Assembly (NCBI GenBank): GCA_022820625.1
Contig: JAJEFE010000088.1
Span: 1 to 64,000, forward strand
Direction of reading: 5' to 3'
DNA length: 64,000 bases
From: Gammaproteobacteria bacterium
Lineage (GTDB): Bacteria; Pseudomonadota; Gammaproteobacteria; Steroidobacterales; Rariloculaceae
The notes beneath the pieces were generated by a model. The model was not told the origin of the DNA. It saw nothing but the letters and a program-made list of their open reading frames with translations, and searched no databases. This document shows, piece after piece, positions 2,172-11,195 of the stretch. Position numbers and translations under genes: made by a program. The number at the start of each line of letters is the position of its first letter. Positions within the stretch are counted from its first letter, which is position 1.

Positions 2172-2319
2172 TTACCCGGGAAAGGTCGATTATTTTGCGC
2201 GAAGTGACCAGAAAGAGCACTTTTCGACGGCAAGCAGGTGAGTATCCTTGCTTGCATGCTGATGACAATGTCGCACTGCGGCCTGGTGGAAATGAGGGAA
2301 CCCTTGCATGGCGTCCAAT

Positions 2320-2341
2320 AATGTAGTCACATACCTACATT
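2320..2341. promoter_or_regulatory. Operator candidate of the first phd/vapC pair
   Basis: AATGTAG and CTACATT form perfect 7-base arms around an 8-base spacer, 18 bases before the antitoxin ATG. Type II antitoxins of the Phd/VapB class bind such palindromes. Confidence 0.6.
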
Positions 2342-2358
2342 CTTTGCCGGAGGCTGGC

Positions 2359-2613
2359 ATGAACATCACGACCGTCACTAGCCGCGAGCTCAACCAGGAT
2401 GTCGCCCGCGCAAAAAGGGCAGCGAAATCGGGTCCGGTCTTCATCACGACCCGGGGCAAACCGGCACATGTGTTGCTCAGCATCGAGGACTACAGGCGAA
2501 TGGCCGGAGAGCGCCGCAATCTTGCAGACGCCTTGTCCATGGCGGGGCTCGGCGAGATCGATCTGGATCCGCCGCGCTTGCGTATTGAAGTCCCGCGAGC
2601 CGACCTTGACTGA
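2359..2613 (+). CDS. Phd/YefM-type antitoxin
   Basis: An 84-residue antitoxin starting MNITTVTSRELNQDVARAKR, followed by GPVFITTRGKPAHVLLSIEDY, the family pattern. The N-terminal half should form the DNA-binding Phd fold and the C-terminal tail (DLDPPRL...) should bind and mask the toxin. The ATG at 2359 has a GGAGG five bases upstream, which decides against the longer track start at 2308. The stop overlaps the toxin start by one base (TGATG), so the two are co-translated. A palindromic operator lies just upstream. Confidence 0.85.
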   Translation: MNITTVTSRELNQDVARAKRAAKSGPVFITTRGKPAHVLLSIEDYRRMAGERRNLADALSMAGLGEIDLDPPRLRIEVPRADLD

Positions 2614-3053
2614 TGTTTCTGCTGGACACGAACGTCGTCTCGGAATTGCGAAAGGTCGGCGACGGCACGGCCAATTCCCGCGTTGTCGAGTGGGTCTCCG
2701 GCCAGGATGCATCCACCCTGTTCATTTCCGCGCTGACGCTCATGGAGCTGGAGATCGGCATTCTGCGCATCGAGCGGCGTGATGCCGAGCAGGGGAAACG
2801 GCTGAGGATCTGGTTCGACAGGCATGTGCTGCCCGAGTTTCAGGAACGCACACTGCCGATCGATGCCGCCGTCGCCCTGAAGTGCGCCCGGCTGCACGTA
2901 CCCGACCCAAGGGCCGAGCGCGACGCGCTGATCGCAGCAACAGCCATGGTGCACGGCATGACCGTCGTCACGGGCAACCGTACCGATTTCGAAGCGACGG
3001 GCGTGGCGTTCATCGATCCTTGGGCCGGGTCGAGACCGGCGAGGATGTCGTGA
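2613..3053 (+). CDS. PIN-domain toxin (VapC/FitB type)
   Basis: A 146-residue PIN ribonuclease starting MFLLDTNVVSELRK. It has the acidic residues expected of the active site: D5, a Glu in LMELEIG near residue 45, an Asp in RDALIAATA near residue 104, and NRTDF near residue 122. VapC toxins cleave RNA and are neutralised by the upstream Phd-type antitoxin, whose stop codon overlaps this start. The last residues after FIDPW (AGSRPARMS) run into debris of another toxin-antitoxin pair, so the C-terminus may be altered. Confidence 0.85.
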   Translation: MFLLDTNVVSELRKVGDGTANSRVVEWVSGQDASTLFISALTLMELEIGILRIERRDAEQGKRLRIWFDRHVLPEFQERTLPIDAAVALKCARLHVPDPRAERDALIAATAMVHGMTVVTGNRTDFEATGVAFIDPWAGSRPARMS

Positions 3054-3174
3054 TCGCGTGGGAAGGCCGATAGCGGTGCGGGTGTTGCTGGATACCCATG
3101 CGTTTCTCTGGTGGATTGCCGATAGCGAAAAGCTCTCCACGGCCGCACTCGAGGATCGCTGGCTCAGGGGTTGA
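3029..3174 (+). pseudogene. Fused remnant of a second phd-vapC pair
   Basis: Bases 3029-3070 translate as VETGEDVVIAWEGR, the conserved GEDVVIA..GRP motif of Phd antitoxins. After a frame change, 3076-3174 reads VRVLLDTHAFLWWIADSEKLS, a typical VapC N-terminus, then stops after 32 codons. The end of an antitoxin and the start of its toxin have been joined by deletion, with the rest of both lost. The scar directly abuts the intact vapC upstream. Confidence 0.75.
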
Positions 3175-3289
3175 GACAACCATCGGCCATGCGTCGTTTT
3201 TTGCTGCAAAACTGCACGACATGCCTGGATTTGAGGCATCGGTTCGATCACTCCGAAGCGTATACTCCTCGCATTCACGGAGGCGTTGC

Positions 3290-3964
3290 ATGATTCTGTC
3301 GGACAGCGATATTCGATTGGCCCACGAGAGTGGGAAAATCGGGCTTGAGCCGTTCTCGGAGTCTTCGGTTCAACCGGCCTCGTACGATTTGCGCGTTGGA
3401 AACCAGGCCGCGATTTCTTCAGACAAACAGGTCGTCAACCTCGCCACCAGGGGTTTCGTGGAAATCAAGCCCGGCGATTTTGTAATCGTGTCCACCCACG
3501 AGAAGCTCGCGCTGGACTTGAGCCATGCCGGTCGTTTCGGTCTGACAAGCACCTACGCCCGTAAAGGGTTGATCGCCTCGGTTGGCACACAGGTCGATCC
3601 GGGATTCCGGGGCAGATTGTTCGTCGGCCTTACGAACCTGTCGACAAGACCCATTACCCTGCCGCACGCGGATGTGTTCCTTACGGTCGAGTTCCACGCC
3701 CTGCAACGGCCGGTGGATGCGCCATACTCCGGCCCGTATCAGGGCCGCGACGAACTGACGCCCGAAGACATCCGCGTCGTGATGGAACGCGAATACATGT
3801 CTCAAACCGAGATGATGCGCACTCTGGAAACGCTCGTCTCCACCGTGAACAGCCTCAAGCAAAGCATAAATTGGCGCCTTCCATTGACCATGGGGCTCAT
3901 CGTGTCGGTCATCATGACGACCGTGACGCTGGTAATGACGCTGGTGGTGACGTTGGCGCTCTAG
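3290..3964 (+). CDS. dCTP-deaminase/dUTPase-fold protein with C-terminal membrane anchor
   Basis: A 224-residue protein whose first 140 residues follow dCTP deaminase: VQPASYDLRVG (about 27-37), STYARKGL (87-94, equivalent to the SSLARLGL loop), TQVDPGFRGRL (100-110). The position of the catalytic Glu of E. coli Dcd (VLEFYN) is FVGLTN here, with Gly in place of Glu, so deamination is doubtful. Residues about 165-195 look like a short coiled coil, and 198-223 form one hydrophobic membrane segment, unusual for the family. The ATG at 3290 has ACGGAGG six bases upstream; the track start at 3098 is rejected. The NERD-helicase gene lies convergently 17 bases away. It may be a nucleotide-sensing defence protein; that is inference. 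Confidence 0.7.
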   Translation: MILSDSDIRLAHESGKIGLEPFSESSVQPASYDLRVGNQAAISSDKQVVNLATRGFVEIKPGDFVIVSTHEKLALDLSHAGRFGLTSTYARKGLIASVGTQVDPGFRGRLFVGLTNLSTRPITLPHADVFLTVEFHALQRPVDAPYSGPYQGRDELTPEDIRVVMEREYMSQTEMMRTLETLVSTVNSLKQSINWRLPLTMGLIVSVIMTTVTLVMTLVVTLAL

Positions 3965-6863: not shown

Positions 6864-7304
6864 TCAGGCGGGGAGACCGTGAAGGCCTCTCTCGATCACC
6901 TCTTCGACTTCACGGCTGCCGATCTCGGTTAGCGCAACCTCCAACGGAGCACGATCCCCAAGTTCCGGATGAGTGCCCGCCAGAAAGCGAACTGTTGCTG
7001 CAGGCTCCCCGAAGACGGCCAACATAATCGCATACAGCCTTGCCATGCGCTCGATTGTTTGACTCACCCGGTGGTCGAACCGGTCAACGCGCTTGTAGAT
7101 CGTGTGCGGCACGATCCGATTGCGCAGCCGAATGGCAAAATCGTCATCCTGTCCGGTGCGAAGGGCCTTGATGAAAGCGACCAGCGCCGACTTCGGCATC
7201 CCGGCGCGCACGACTTCATCGAGCTCGCGCATCTTGGTGACTCGTCGGCCAAGGATCGGAGGACCACCCAGAACATTCGCAATCTGTTCGGCCGAGATGC
7301 CCAT
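6864..7304 (-). CDS. Orphan MbcA/ParS-type (DUF2384) antitoxin
   Basis: A 146-residue protein starting MGISAEQIANVLGG and ending TEIGSREVEEVIERGLHGLPA, the C-terminal MbcA/ParS/Xre region that normally binds a RES toxin. HPELGDRAPLEVAL is the hallmark of that domain. The ATG at 7304 is preferred to the TTG at 7337 given by the track. RES toxin genes normally follow immediately. Here the next 100 bases hold only an open but unrecognised frame (RIDLPKADILRTIHAIEG) and then the GGCT gene, so the toxin seems lost or displaced. Confidence 0.65.
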   Translation of the reverse strand: MGISAEQIANVLGGPPILGRRVTKMRELDEVVRAGMPKSALVAFIKALRTGQDDDFAIRLRNRIVPHTIYKRVDRFDHRVSQTIERMARLYAIMLAVFGEPAATVRFLAGTHPELGDRAPLEVALTEIGSREVEEVIERGLHGLPA

Positions 7305-7395
7305 ATGGCTCTTATAGTCAGTGGTCAAGAAGCGCAAAGGCCTGATTCTTGCAAATCAACTCCTCGACACACAAATTCATCTAAGGAAAACTCGT

Positions 7396-8640
7396 TCAAC
7401 CATCAGCGACAAACAAAGATGCCTGATGTTGTAAGTGCGCCGTCGACTGGTACCTCACGGGTCGCGTCAACTTCGTAATCTTGCCGTCGTCTACGCCTTG
7501 TTTCAGCCAGGTCTTCACCTGTGAGCTTTGAAGATTCAGACAGAGCGCGATCTCATCGGGTTTCAGAGGACCATTTTCAGTAATGGTGAGCACTCGATTC
7601 TGGAACAGCTTGTAGAAGTCCTCTTCACGCTGTTCTGGGGCGTTGCCTGAAATCGGATCATCCGAGGTCGCCAGTAAGGGATGGTCAACTCTGGTGGCTT
7701 CGTACATTTTGGCAGACGAGCCATTCAGCAAGTGTTCAAGGGCTGGCAACTCGGCGGGAATCCATTGTGCTCCTCGCCGGACGAGATGTGGATTGCCTGA
7801 TTTTTCGCTATGGGTACGTTTAACCCACAAGGGAACCCAATCAGCTTTCAGATCCTCGACAGCCCCGTTCCAAGTACCGCCTCTATTGGGGGTGCTGCTT
7901 GCCACTATCGCGGCGTCCGCCAAGCAGTAAATGTACCGGTTTCTGGACATCGCATTCCCGACGTTGAATCCCGCTTCTGGATTGAAGGGAGTTGTAAGTA
8001 CGAGATCGTTCGACAGCAGGTACTTTCGATACTTGGCAGAAGTCGCTGCCCGCATGAGGCTGTCAGCCAATACACCGATTGCGGTGCCCTCCTTCTGCAG
8101 CGCGCTGAACATTGCACACTGGTCCACACCGCGAGCGCCACCGGAGACAATGGAGTAGCCCTGCGCCGAAGCAGCACTGCCAATGTTCTCCGCGAAAGCC
8201 AATTCATCCTTGTCTGCATTTCGCGAACCGACGACAGCGATGCCACCCTTCTCCAGAAGCGCCTTGTTACCGCACCCAAAAAGCACCGGTGGAGAACCCA
8301 TGCGCAGTCGACGTTTCAACCGTTGGGGATACTCCGGTGCCGAGCGGGTAAGGATCCAAAGACCTGCTCGCTGCCATTTCTCAAGCGCGAGTCCCAAGGC
8401 TCCCCCTCGCTGCAGGAGACTCTCCAATCGTGACAGGGGAATAGAACGATCCGTCCACTCCGAAAGTTGGTTTCTCAACTCCCGCTGCAACAGCGCCGAT
8501 GGATCGAGATCACGATCCTTCAACCAGACGGCCAAGCGTGCCCATTCTCTTGCAGAAAGGGGTTTTGCGCTCGTCTTGTCATGTTTTCCGAAACGGACGG
8601 TAAGGAGCATTATCGCCTGAGCCTGGGCGTCTAGGTACAT
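7396..8640 (-). CDS. DprA-like (SMF Rossmann fold) protein with C-terminal winged helix
   Basis: A 414-residue protein. Residues about 130-275 form a DprA/SMF Rossmann domain with IAVVGSRNADKDELAFAE, YSIVSGGARGVDQCAM and a later SRNRYIYCLADAAIVAS. The C-terminal region (about 345-395: PLKPDEIALCLNLQSSQVKTWL) looks like a winged helix. Classical DprA loads RecA on incoming single-stranded DNA. Paralogs joined to a phosphoribosyltransferase or RecQ-like partner occur in accessory, possibly defensive, gene pairs. Such a partner is present here only as a 48-codon stub ending one base before this ATG, so the pair was an operon and has been crippled. Confidence 0.75.
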   Translation of the reverse strand: MYLDAQAQAIMLLTVRFGKHDKTSAKPLSAREWARLAVWLKDRDLDPSALLQRELRNQLSEWTDRSIPLSRLESLLQRGGALGLALEKWQRAGLWILTRSAPEYPQRLKRRLRMGSPPVLFGCGNKALLEKGGIAVVGSRNADKDELAFAENIGSAASAQGYSIVSGGARGVDQCAMFSALQKEGTAIGVLADSLMRAATSAKYRKYLLSNDLVLTTPFNPEAGFNVGNAMSRNRYIYCLADAAIVASSTPNRGGTWNGAVEDLKADWVPLWVKRTHSEKSGNPHLVRRGAQWIPAELPALEHLLNGSSAKMYEATRVDHPLLATSDDPISGNAPEQREEDFYKLFQNRVLTITENGPLKPDEIALCLNLQSSQVKTWLKQGVDDGKITKLTRPVRYQSTAHLQHQASLFVADG

Positions 8641-8641
8641 C

Positions 8642-8788
8642 TCACGATCCCATGCTCGACGTTGCCAGCGCCAATGGCCAAACGCACCCGCTGCCGGATC
8701 CCCGGAGCAGTGCGGATACGACGGTTAGTGTCCACCCGGAATCCACAACATCGTCGATCAGCAGCAAGTCATTGGTAGACTTGTGCAT
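8642..8788 (-). pseudogene. C-terminal stub of a phosphoribosyltransferase-domain protein
   Basis: The 48-codon frame contains LLLIDDVVDSGWTLTVVSA, the PRPP-binding loop of type I phosphoribosyltransferases as found at the C-terminus of some RecQ-like helicases, followed by PLALA. The stop lies one base before the DprA-like start. The first codons (MHKSTNDLLL) resemble the N-terminus of the nitroreductase at 9581 (STVDLLL), and the upstream DNA is a copy of the nitroreductase leader with an in-frame TAG. The stub is a fusion made at a CTGCTGCTGA-like microhomology; the N-terminal part of the PRTase protein is gone. Confidence 0.8.
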
Positions 8789-8816
8789 GGTGCTCGACTA
8801 TAGCAGGTTCATGCCG
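8786..8816. repeat. Copy of the nitroreductase leader and start
   Basis: 27 of 31 bases equal 9579-9609, including the ATG and the codons ATG AAC CTG CTA upstream of it. Similarity resumes further inside the gene (AGTCTACC...CTGCTGCTGA on the minus strand), with about 20 bases missing in this copy. It is a duplicated gene start, now fused to the PRTase stub. Confidence 0.75.
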
Positions 8817-8864
8817 ACCCAGATCTCGTCGAGGTCACGTCGTGCTCCGGGAGAAAACCGATAT

Positions 8865-9581
8865 TCAGGTGCTTCGCCCGACAAGTTTGGTGGCCATTTC
8901 TTCCTTGAACGACTCGCCGTCGAACGGCTCGGGCTCGCCGCTCGCCTCACCCTTGATCAGTTCGCTGCGTATTGCGTCATTCCGGCCCGGCCGCCACTCG
9001 CTGACGATGTTGTCGAATTCCGGCCGCGGCCTCTCATTGGGCGGCGTTTCCACGCTACCGATATGAATGAACGCCACAATCCGGGTCCCCTCGCCATGCC
9101 CCAGGTATCCGATCACCTCCGGATGGTATGCCGGCCAATCCGTCAGCCATTGCCCCCGGTAGCCCATCGCTGCGGTCGCCACGAGGATGTTCTGACAAAG
9201 GGCGGCGCACGACAGCAATTGCTCCACCTCCGGGATTTTCGCCAGCTTCTGCTCGTTGACGTGGAACGTCACCACCAGAAGCGTCGGCGAACGCTGCGGC
9301 CGCTGCCGTTCCAGCTCGACCAGGACTTCATTGGCCTCGGGGTGTTCCCGCTGAAACAATTCGGCACAGAAATCGCCCAGTGCCTGCTGGGCTGGCTTGT
9401 CCAGGATCTGGATTCGCCAGGGCTCTGCCCGGCTGTGGTCGGGTACGCGCAGGCCGCAGCGCAGGATGGTCTGAAGTTCCTCGTCGGACGGGCCGGGCAG
9501 AATCATGTCCTTGGCCAGTACGGAGCGGCGGGTCAGCAGCAGATCGACGGTAGACTGATTCGTGTGTCTGGACTCATTCAT
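8865..9581 (-). CDS. Nitroreductase family FMN enzyme (YdjA-like)
   Basis: A 238-residue protein with the nitroreductase opening LLLTRRSVLAKDMILPGPSDEEL, a HSRAEPWRIQILD FMN-binding region near residue 50, and GYRGQWLTDWPAYHPEV, which resembles the YdjA/TdsD branch. These flavoproteins reduce nitro compounds or quinones with NAD(P)H in the cytoplasm. The ATG at 9581 is chosen; eight codons further upstream an alternative ATG (9605) lies in a leader that has been duplicated at 8786-8816. The gene lies downstream of the arylsulfotransferase-like gene on the same strand. Confidence 0.8.
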   Translation of the reverse strand: MNESRHTNQSTVDLLLTRRSVLAKDMILPGPSDEELQTILRCGLRVPDHSRAEPWRIQILDKPAQQALGDFCAELFQREHPEANEVLVELERQRPQRSPTLLVVTFHVNEQKLAKIPEVEQLLSCAALCQNILVATAAMGYRGQWLTDWPAYHPEVIGYLGHGEGTRIVAFIHIGSVETPPNERPRPEFDNIVSEWRPGRNDAIRSELIKGEASGEPEPFDGESFKEEMATKLVGRST

Positions 9582-9677
9582 GGCGCGCGACTTTAGCAGG
9601 TTCATTCCGCTGAAGCATCGAGCGCTGCGATGGCGCGCTTTCTCTCGGTGGGCGGTATTCGCCTGCCTCTTTCCGCG

Positions 9678-11195
9678 TCAGTCACCCAGCATGATGTCCG
9701 TGATCTTCCCCATCGGCGTCAGTTCTCTGCCCGCCAGTCCCGGATGATCCGGCGCGATCCAGTGCGCCGTGAAGATCCGGTTGTCGTCCTTGTCCGTCAT
9801 GGCTTTCCTGAAGACGTCGCTCGGCGCGGTCCCATCGGGCACGCTGGACATCACGGGATTGATGTACTCCCACACAACTTCCCCGTCCGGCGTCACCTGG
9901 AACACGTGTCCCTGCCTGCCCGCGATTCCGAGCGTATTGCCATTGGCCAGGCGCTGGACGCCGGAGATATTCTCGCTGTAGAAGCTGTTGGCGTGCACGG
10001 CCCGGAAGCTCCACACGATCTGATTGGCCGGACCGCCCGCCTCCACCTCCGACAGATACGGCGCATCGGGATACGCCCCGTCATAAGGATTGACCTCGAG
10101 CAGCACCGAATAGTAGGCACCCGCGCGCCGCGACCCGTTGTCGAAGACCAGGAAATTGCCCGCGCCCGGCAACCTGTCCTTGATCCACTGAATGTCGTGG
10201 TGGTGGAAGAGCAACCGGTCGCCTTCCGAGGTCGCATCGCCGTCGGGGTTGTAGCTTGGCGCCTCGCCCGAATCGTAGAGCGCCGGGTTGCCCCACCGGT
10301 AGATGATGTCGCCCGCGGGTCCTGCCGCGAGCGCCTTGCTGGCTTCGAAATCCCCGACCACGAAGGTGCCGCCGTGGTCGATGACGTAGATCTCACCCAT
10401 CCGGTCGTTGTTGACCACGATCTGGTCCTTTTCCCGGTGGTAGTCGAGCGCGTTCTGGTGCGTGAAGTCGCCACTCAGCCCAGGTCCCCAGTTGAGATCG
10501 AACCGCCCCGGGTTCTCGGCCAGCACGCCGTAGTTGGGCCAGTCGGGATTCATGTCCTGGATCACGTGGTCCAGCGACCACCACTCCCAGACGATGTTGC
10601 CGTCCATGTCCACCTCGACGACCCCGTCGGGTGCGGCATCCCATTCGACCGACGGGTCGGCGCCCGCCGCCACGGCCTGTTCCTGGGACATCGGAAACAT
10701 CGACGTGAAGATGATGGTCCAGTCGTCGAGGTGGTTGTTCCAGATGCGCTTGAAGTTGTGATGGTAGAGGTAGCCCTCCCGCGGATCGCTGAAAGCCCAG
10801 ACGACGTTGCCGTCCCAGTCCAGTTCCAGCAGGGCCCGCTCGCCTTCGGTGGTGTGCCCGGCCGTGCTGAGGCCTTGGACGATGGTGCCCTTCTCGGTCA
10901 GGCGGGCGGTTTTCTCAAGGACAAATCCGCGCCCCTGGTACTCCGGCGGAACGGTCTTCCACATGTGAACCACTTCCCCGTCCAGGTTGATGAGGTAGGT
11001 GTATTCGTAATCCTCGTGCCGCGGCCACGAAGGCAGCAAAAGATATCCGGGCGCCGCCTTCTCGGGATCGGAGTAGATCAGCTCAGTGGGCCCGTGGAAG
11101 GTTTCGTAGGCGATCGCCGGCCCTGGCAACGTCAGGATACATGCCGCTGGTATCAGTGCCAGGGCCAGATCGTGATGTCTCTTGTTGTTTCGCAT
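9678..11195 (-). CDS. Secreted arylsulfotransferase (ASST)-family protein
   Basis: A 505-residue protein with a Sec signal peptide (RHHDLALALIPAACILTLPGPAIA) and repeated beta-propeller blades: GEVVHMW, GNVVWAF, GNIVWEWW, GEVVWEY. Conserved histidines lie in YLYHHNFKRI, FTHQNALDY and LLFHHHDIQWI, as expected of the ASST/Arylsulfotran_2 group, which transfers sulfate between phenolic compounds in the periplasm. The ATG at 11195 has AAGGAGAG upstream; the track start at 11477 adds 94 unlikely residues. No DsbA/DsbB-like partner, common beside classical ASST genes, is visible. A sulfatase lies at the far end of the window. Confidence 0.75.
   Translation of the reverse strand: MRNNKRHHDLALALIPAACILTLPGPAIAYETFHGPTELIYSDPEKAAPGYLLLPSWPRHEDYEYTYLINLDGEVVHMWKTVPPEYQGRGFVLEKTARLTEKGTIVQGLSTAGHTTEGERALLELDWDGNVVWAFSDPREGYLYHHNFKRIWNNHLDDWTIIFTSMFPMSQEQAVAAGADPSVEWDAAPDGVVEVDMDGNIVWEWWSLDHVIQDMNPDWPNYGVLAENPGRFDLNWGPGLSGDFTHQNALDYHREKDQIVVNNDRMGEIYVIDHGGTFVVGDFEASKALAAGPAGDIIYRWGNPALYDSGEAPSYNPDGDATSEGDRLLFHHHDIQWIKDRLPGAGNFLVFDNGSRRAGAYYSVLLEVNPYDGAYPDAPYLSEVEAGGPANQIVWSFRAVHANSFYSENISGVQRLANGNTLGIAGRQGHVFQVTPDGEVVWEYINPVMSSVPDGTAPSDVFRKAMTDKDDNRIFTAHWIAPDHPGLAGRELTPMGKITDIMLGD

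Follow-up and report, generated by a model that had tools for sequence, protein, structure and literature searches.

What does a protein with the fold of a dCTP deaminase (Dcd) do when it lacks the catalytic glutamate of that enzyme and ends in a membrane helix? The gene for such a protein lies in the window analysed here, by which we mean the whole stretch of 64,000 nucleotides taken from contig JAJEFE010000088.1 of a gammaproteobacterial assembly (GCA_022820625.1). A preliminary description had read the product as a membrane-anchored and probably inactive relative of Dcd, paired with a neighbouring NERD-helicase.

Fold and layout of the protein

The gene and its surroundings are listed in Table 1. 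A longer in-frame reading frame opening at position 3098 has no support as the start of the gene, since the homologues begin at the same MILSD.

Table 1. Features of the window at and around the gene for the DCD/dUTPase-fold membrane protein
Feature	Position	Strand	Remarks
Phd/YefM antitoxin and PIN toxin pair	2308..3053	+	upstream of the DCD gene; profile matches
Truncated start of a PIN-type (VapC-like) gene, ...VRVLLDTHAFLWWIADS...	3070..3174	+	left slot edge; PIN identity read from sequence
Shine-Dalgarno-like GGAGG	3278..3282	+	7 bases 5' of the DCD gene's ATG
DCD/dUTPase-fold membrane protein gene	3290..3964	+	224 aa plus stop; intact ORF
DCD/dUTPase-fold domain, residues 1-156	3290..3757	+	AlphaFold2, structure matches, alignment
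Helical linker, residues 157-195	3758..3874	+	possible coiled coil; AlphaFold2, comparison with L002
C-terminal membrane helix, residues 196-224	3875..3961	+	hydropathy; no tail past the membrane
NERD-helicase, 553 aa	3982..5643	-	right edge of slot; tail to tail with the DCD gene, 17 bases apart
PsyrA-like (DprA-family) gene	7396..8640	-	same island, 3.4 kb from the DCD gene; PADLOC PsyrA 1.8e-149

The protein matches the Pfam DCD family (PF22769, E 5.8e-24) and scores 106 bits on TIGR02274 (dCTP_deam) against a cut-off of 92.8, and AlphaFold2 models its DCD domain with confidence (block pLDDT mostly 90-96). Together with the structural matches, these results bear out the fold proposed in the preliminary description. 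The best structural matches of the model are dUTPases, including 9ln0 and 9ln3 ('dUTPase P45'; TM-score over target 0.92-0.93, 37% identity), and the Thermococcus pacificus dUTPase solved with dUMP (8y1w) gives a TM-score of 0.91 at 36% identity. No match to PF00692, the classical trimeric Dut family, was obtained at E 0.01, and the C-terminal tail reads PY.G.YQ in place of the Gly-rich motif V of classical Dut.

Behind the DCD domain AlphaFold2 places two C-terminal helices, at residues 158-192 (pLDDT 54-75) and 196-223. The second falls within a hydrophobic segment (residues 196-224; hydropathy averaging 2.39 over 19 residues), which agrees with the membrane helix described earlier; no such segment was found in the canonical Dcds checked, whose hydropathy is at most 1.25. 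For the first, a short coiled coil had been claimed: the helix is there in the model, but it is predicted with low confidence and the coiled coil is plausible only. Between the window protein and its nearest homologue (L002), 28 of 39 linker residues are identical (72%), compared with 94 of 156 residues in the DCD domain (60%) and 9 of 22 in the membrane helix. The linker is thus more conserved than either of the parts it connects, which argues that it does more than join them.

The best reading of this layout is that the cytosolic part of a tail-anchored inner-membrane protein would be a dUTPase-superfamily domain closest to the archaeal P45-type dUTPases.

The missing glutamate and the active-site pocket

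Residue columns were read from an alignment of 39 relatives, in which the window protein falls into a group of eight close relatives, group A. The catalytic Glu of Dcd (E138 in E. coli, within the LEF/LEL.N strand) is present in all nine canonical Dcds, this genome's own included, and is replaced by Gly113 in the window protein, as had been claimed. Within group A the column holds Gly in seven members and Thr in one; it is Met in both archaeal dUTPases of solved structure (9ln0 and 8y1w), and in the Dut of this genome it is Ser. Judged by its residues, the window protein cannot deaminate dCTP by the known mechanism. The missing Glu excludes that mechanism but is no sign of a dead protein, because dUTPases lack it too. 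With most of a dUTPase-type pocket also retained, the earlier verdict of 'probably inactive' could not be upheld. Not every viral 'dUTPase' of this kind is without the Glu, which is present in the SIRV1 and STSV2 proteins and missing only from the P45 and Thermococcus enzymes. The TIGR02274 equivalog model scores above its cut-off on the window protein and on the protein of L061 (6001-6678), both of which lack the Glu. Labels based on it therefore include proteins unable to deaminate by the known mechanism, and automatic annotation as dCTP deaminase is misleading.

The pocket residues retained in the window protein are S87, R91, D103, Y146, Y150 and Q151, and D33, S87, R91, D103, Y146 and Q151 are invariant across group A (8/8, bacterial and phage members alike). 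D33, S87, A90, R91, D103 and the PY.G.YQ tail are shared with the P45-type and Thermococcus dUTPases. In dUTPases the Arg of motif II and the Gln of motif IV contact phosphates. In the motif II column five members of group A keep Arg, the window protein (T86) and L002 have Thr and L022 has Ser, and the motif IV column holds Thr or Ser in all eight (Thr132 in the window protein). These changes may have cost the window protein affinity or catalysis. Group A also has a new invariant pair of residues, E134 and H136, which is shared with its sister L065 and occurs together in no other group of the alignment. Since residues 132, 134 and 136 would share one face of a strand, the invariant E134 beside motif IV could be a candidate alternative Glu facing the pocket.

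Compared with known enzymes, the window protein thus has the fold of the archaeal P45-type dUTPases (9ln0, 9ln3, 8y1w; about 37% identity), their lack of the deaminase Glu and the same S/R/D and PY.G.YQ residues. Unlike it, those enzymes lack a helical linker, the E134/H136 pair and, over the portion visible, any membrane segment, and they do have the Gln of motif IV and the Arg of motif II. Dcd and bifunctional Dcd-Dut enzymes (E. coli Dcd, M. tuberculosis 2qxx, M. jannaschii 1ogh) have the DCD fold in common with the window protein, which differs in lacking the catalytic Glu and in its anchor, absent from the canonical Dcds checked.

The strongest rival to the reading we prefer is that of an ordinary active dUTPase which happens to be tethered, providing extra nucleotide sanitation near the membrane by converting dUTP to dUMP and signalling nothing. 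No member of group A varies at the catalytic Asp or in most of the P45-type pocket, the nearest structures are true dUTPases, and a Pyrococcus furiosus protein labelled dCTP deaminase proved to be an efficient dUTPase devoid of deaminase activity (PMC5122711). However, every member of group A has another residue in place of the motif IV Gln and three of the eight also lack the motif II Arg, the anchor would serve no simple need, the linker is unusually conserved and the slot occupied by the gene otherwise holds defence or toxin genes. In addition, the genome has its own Dut on contig 143, as well as a Glu-bearing Dcd on contig 82, and the window protein evidently does not replace these housekeeping enzymes. 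We regard a plain tethered dUTPase as somewhat unlikely.

Relatives in bacteria and phages, and the exchange slot

Group A comprises the window protein, L002 (about 60% identical), L022 (genome G316), L023 (genome G042) and proteins from four IMG/VR contigs. The architecture of the window protein recurs in these seven homologues at 36-59% identity, with a C-terminal membrane segment in all eight members. Comparison with L002 gave a dN of 0.33 and a dS of 1.63, the latter near saturation, hence a dN/dS of about 0.2. Recurrence and dN/dS together indicate that the architecture is more than chance. The family is rare, with matches in four of 369 genomes of the class, the window genome counted; the match in G323, included in the four, is a group B protein. 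In the tree, groups A, B and C form separate clades (support 98/90, 100/100 and 100/99, respectively), and their joining is weak (83/69). The sister protein L065 (6001-6933) has the same DCD domain followed by a C-terminus resembling the winged-helix regions of phage replication proteins, without a membrane helix.

All four IMG/VR contigs encode full-length group A proteins, and Mu-like phage genes are found on at least three of them. On L063 and L064 the gene lies amid genes for a Mu-like transposase or transposition protein, a gp16-like protein and terminase, and on L064 it precedes an endolysin-like gene; the L062 contig has a matching small terminase and the L061 contig a terminase-like protein. 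Additional IMG/VR scans yielded no more group A phages. Such carriage speaks for a moron gene of Mu-like phages, serving uracil control, counter-defence or exclusion of other phages, with the bacterial copies as strays. Against this, phage genes were not found alongside the window, L022 and L023 copies, and the other occupants of the window's exchange slot are defence or toxin-antitoxin genes. We consider the moron account unlikely, although an origin as a moron is compatible both with our preferred reading and with a plain dUTPase.

Homologues scattered without defence neighbours had been named beforehand as telling against the preliminary reading. The members of group A are indeed scattered among Gammaproteobacteria, but several homologues have defence-type or mobile neighbours. 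The group A genes of L022, L023 and L002 are flanked mostly by housekeeping rather than defence genes.

In the window, the gene occupies a slot whose edges can be followed into congeners. On the left, the PIN-type gene is truncated at almost identical points in the window and in G752, and positions 3055-3119 match G752 at 95%, the match ending within the start of the broken gene. On the right, the NERD-helicase is 93% identical to that of G752 and 90% identical to that of G748, both of the same genus. The DCD gene is absent from both congeners although the helicase is present, and a search of 57 other relatives did not find it in any of them. Beside the helicase, G748 holds an AbiEii toxin (PADLOC 1.2e-104), and the G752 product bears a Peptidase_M78 (IrrE-like) domain. 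These slot contents, the Phd/PIN pair and the PsyrA-like gene point to an exchangeable position in a defence-type island. To judge from the three genomes, the only ones in which the slot is informative, the DCD gene is an exchangeable cassette within it. The PsyrA-like gene is of antitoxin type. Positions 25-146 and 1411-1886 of the window both match one place in L090 (96-97%), and hence the window's start holds a second copy of part of the methyltransferase region.

The same comparison bears on the pairing with the NERD-helicase put forward in the preliminary description: the tail-to-tail arrangement stands, but the pairing is not conserved. A catalytically dead Dcd acting with the helicase as a two-gene unit would fit the Gly at the Glu column and the 17 bases between the genes. 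However, the congeners keep the helicase without the DCD gene and fill the slot with others, and most of the dUTPase-type pocket is retained. The helicase was hence rejected as a conserved or obligate partner, the two-gene pairing is largely refuted, and we hold this account to be very improbable. Least credible of all is that a gene of nucleotide metabolism has decayed here and no longer serves a function: a remnant of a group A gene (its first ~31 codons) does survive in L020 (8001-8093), but the window gene is an intact frame with a ribosome-binding site, its dN and dS indicate purifying selection and its pocket residues are invariant even in distant members.

A tentative model and the wider family

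The reading we prefer, quite possible but held tentatively, is that of a dUTPase-like protein, tethered to the membrane, that would bind nucleotides and sense or clear them in phage-host conflict. The protein would be tail-anchored in the inner membrane with its dUTPase-superfamily domain in the cytosol, where three subunits would assemble into the trimer usual for the DCD/dUTPase fold, with dUTP or a related (d)NTP as the ligand of the retained pocket. Binding or hydrolysis could then be signalled along the helical linker to the three membrane helices, bundled together, abnormal nucleotide pools in infection being sensed or cleared at the membrane. The gene travels as an exchangeable cassette in the defence-type island and, in relatives, with Mu-like phages.

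Anti-phage dCTP deaminases are zinc enzymes of the CDA fold, and none of the PADLOC families matches the window protein at E 0.01; the likening to those enzymes in the preliminary description was therefore abandoned. Comparable are the DefensePredictor systems, among which those with thymidylate synthase and 5-hmdU kinase domains were validated and those with dUTPase and MazG domains predicted (PMC13092281). Its dUTPase, MazG and aGPT-PPlase systems place nucleotide-pool domains in defence contexts, as here; the dUTPase system is a prediction only and is likened to the window protein by domain type (PMC13092281). CARF-TM Cam1 likewise has a nucleotide-binding domain fused to a membrane part, but the sensor fold and signal differ and the likeness is one of analogy only (PMC10808066). 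In the literature open to search, which includes few subscription papers, we found nothing specific on membrane-anchored Dcd/dUTPase proteins. If the preferred reading is true, a textbook nucleotide-enzyme family would gain a membrane-anchored branch, and anti-phage responses at the membrane would be tied to uracil and dNTP metabolism; the protein is in this sense a candidate for a novel means by which cells or phages respond to DNA building blocks.

A broader proposal, which we think improbable in this general form though less so than the moron account, is that the Glu-less DCD/dUTPase-fold family consists of membrane-bound nucleotide sensors of phage-host conflict. Its members would read dUTP or phage-altered dNTPs and act through varied outputs, namely membrane helices in groups A-C and a DNA-binding-like domain in L065, and the group A active site would have been remodelled at Thr/Ser132, Glu134 and His136.

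Group B (L024, L025 and L068-L074), whose members are more distant relatives, is found on alphaproteobacterial plasmids and also in G323. Its proteins, annotated 'deoxycytidine triphosphate deaminase' on the plasmids, share the layout of the window protein, with a DCD domain lacking the Glu, a helical linker and, in nearly all, a C-terminal membrane helix, but form a separate clade (100/100). Unlike the window protein they have lost R91 and, for the most part, S87 and the YQ tail; D103 is kept. They also have recurrent gene company, with UDG, MazG, HTH, ImmA/IrrE, C1 peptidase, and thymidylate synthase or base-hypermodification genes as neighbours. In L068-L072 (plasmids), L025 and L026 there recur HTH, ImmA/IrrE, C1 peptidase, hypothetical, UDG and MazG-type genes with that for the membrane-helix DCD protein, and a thymidylate synthase or base-hypermodification gene as well. 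This cluster has the appearance of a conflict or base-modification system that is yet to be characterised, so that relatives of the window protein are found in plasmid gene clusters resembling such systems.

Three further arrangements were observed. In L030 (G323, 7270-9685) a 196-aa gene, a gene for a membrane-helix DCD protein and an HMUDK_hel gene (PF18723, 1e-95) form a run near a large methylase-like gene, a helicase-like gene and an integrase-like gene, these last three being read by eye. L032 (1024-2127, minus strand) encodes a DCD protein in which MazG-like motifs, also read by eye, lie C-terminal to the domain; Pfam and NCBIfam searches gave no MazG match there. In L075 (244-5726) a DCD protein with two membrane segments is encoded right after AAA ATPase and UvrD-helicase genes, an arrangement reminiscent of Gabija.
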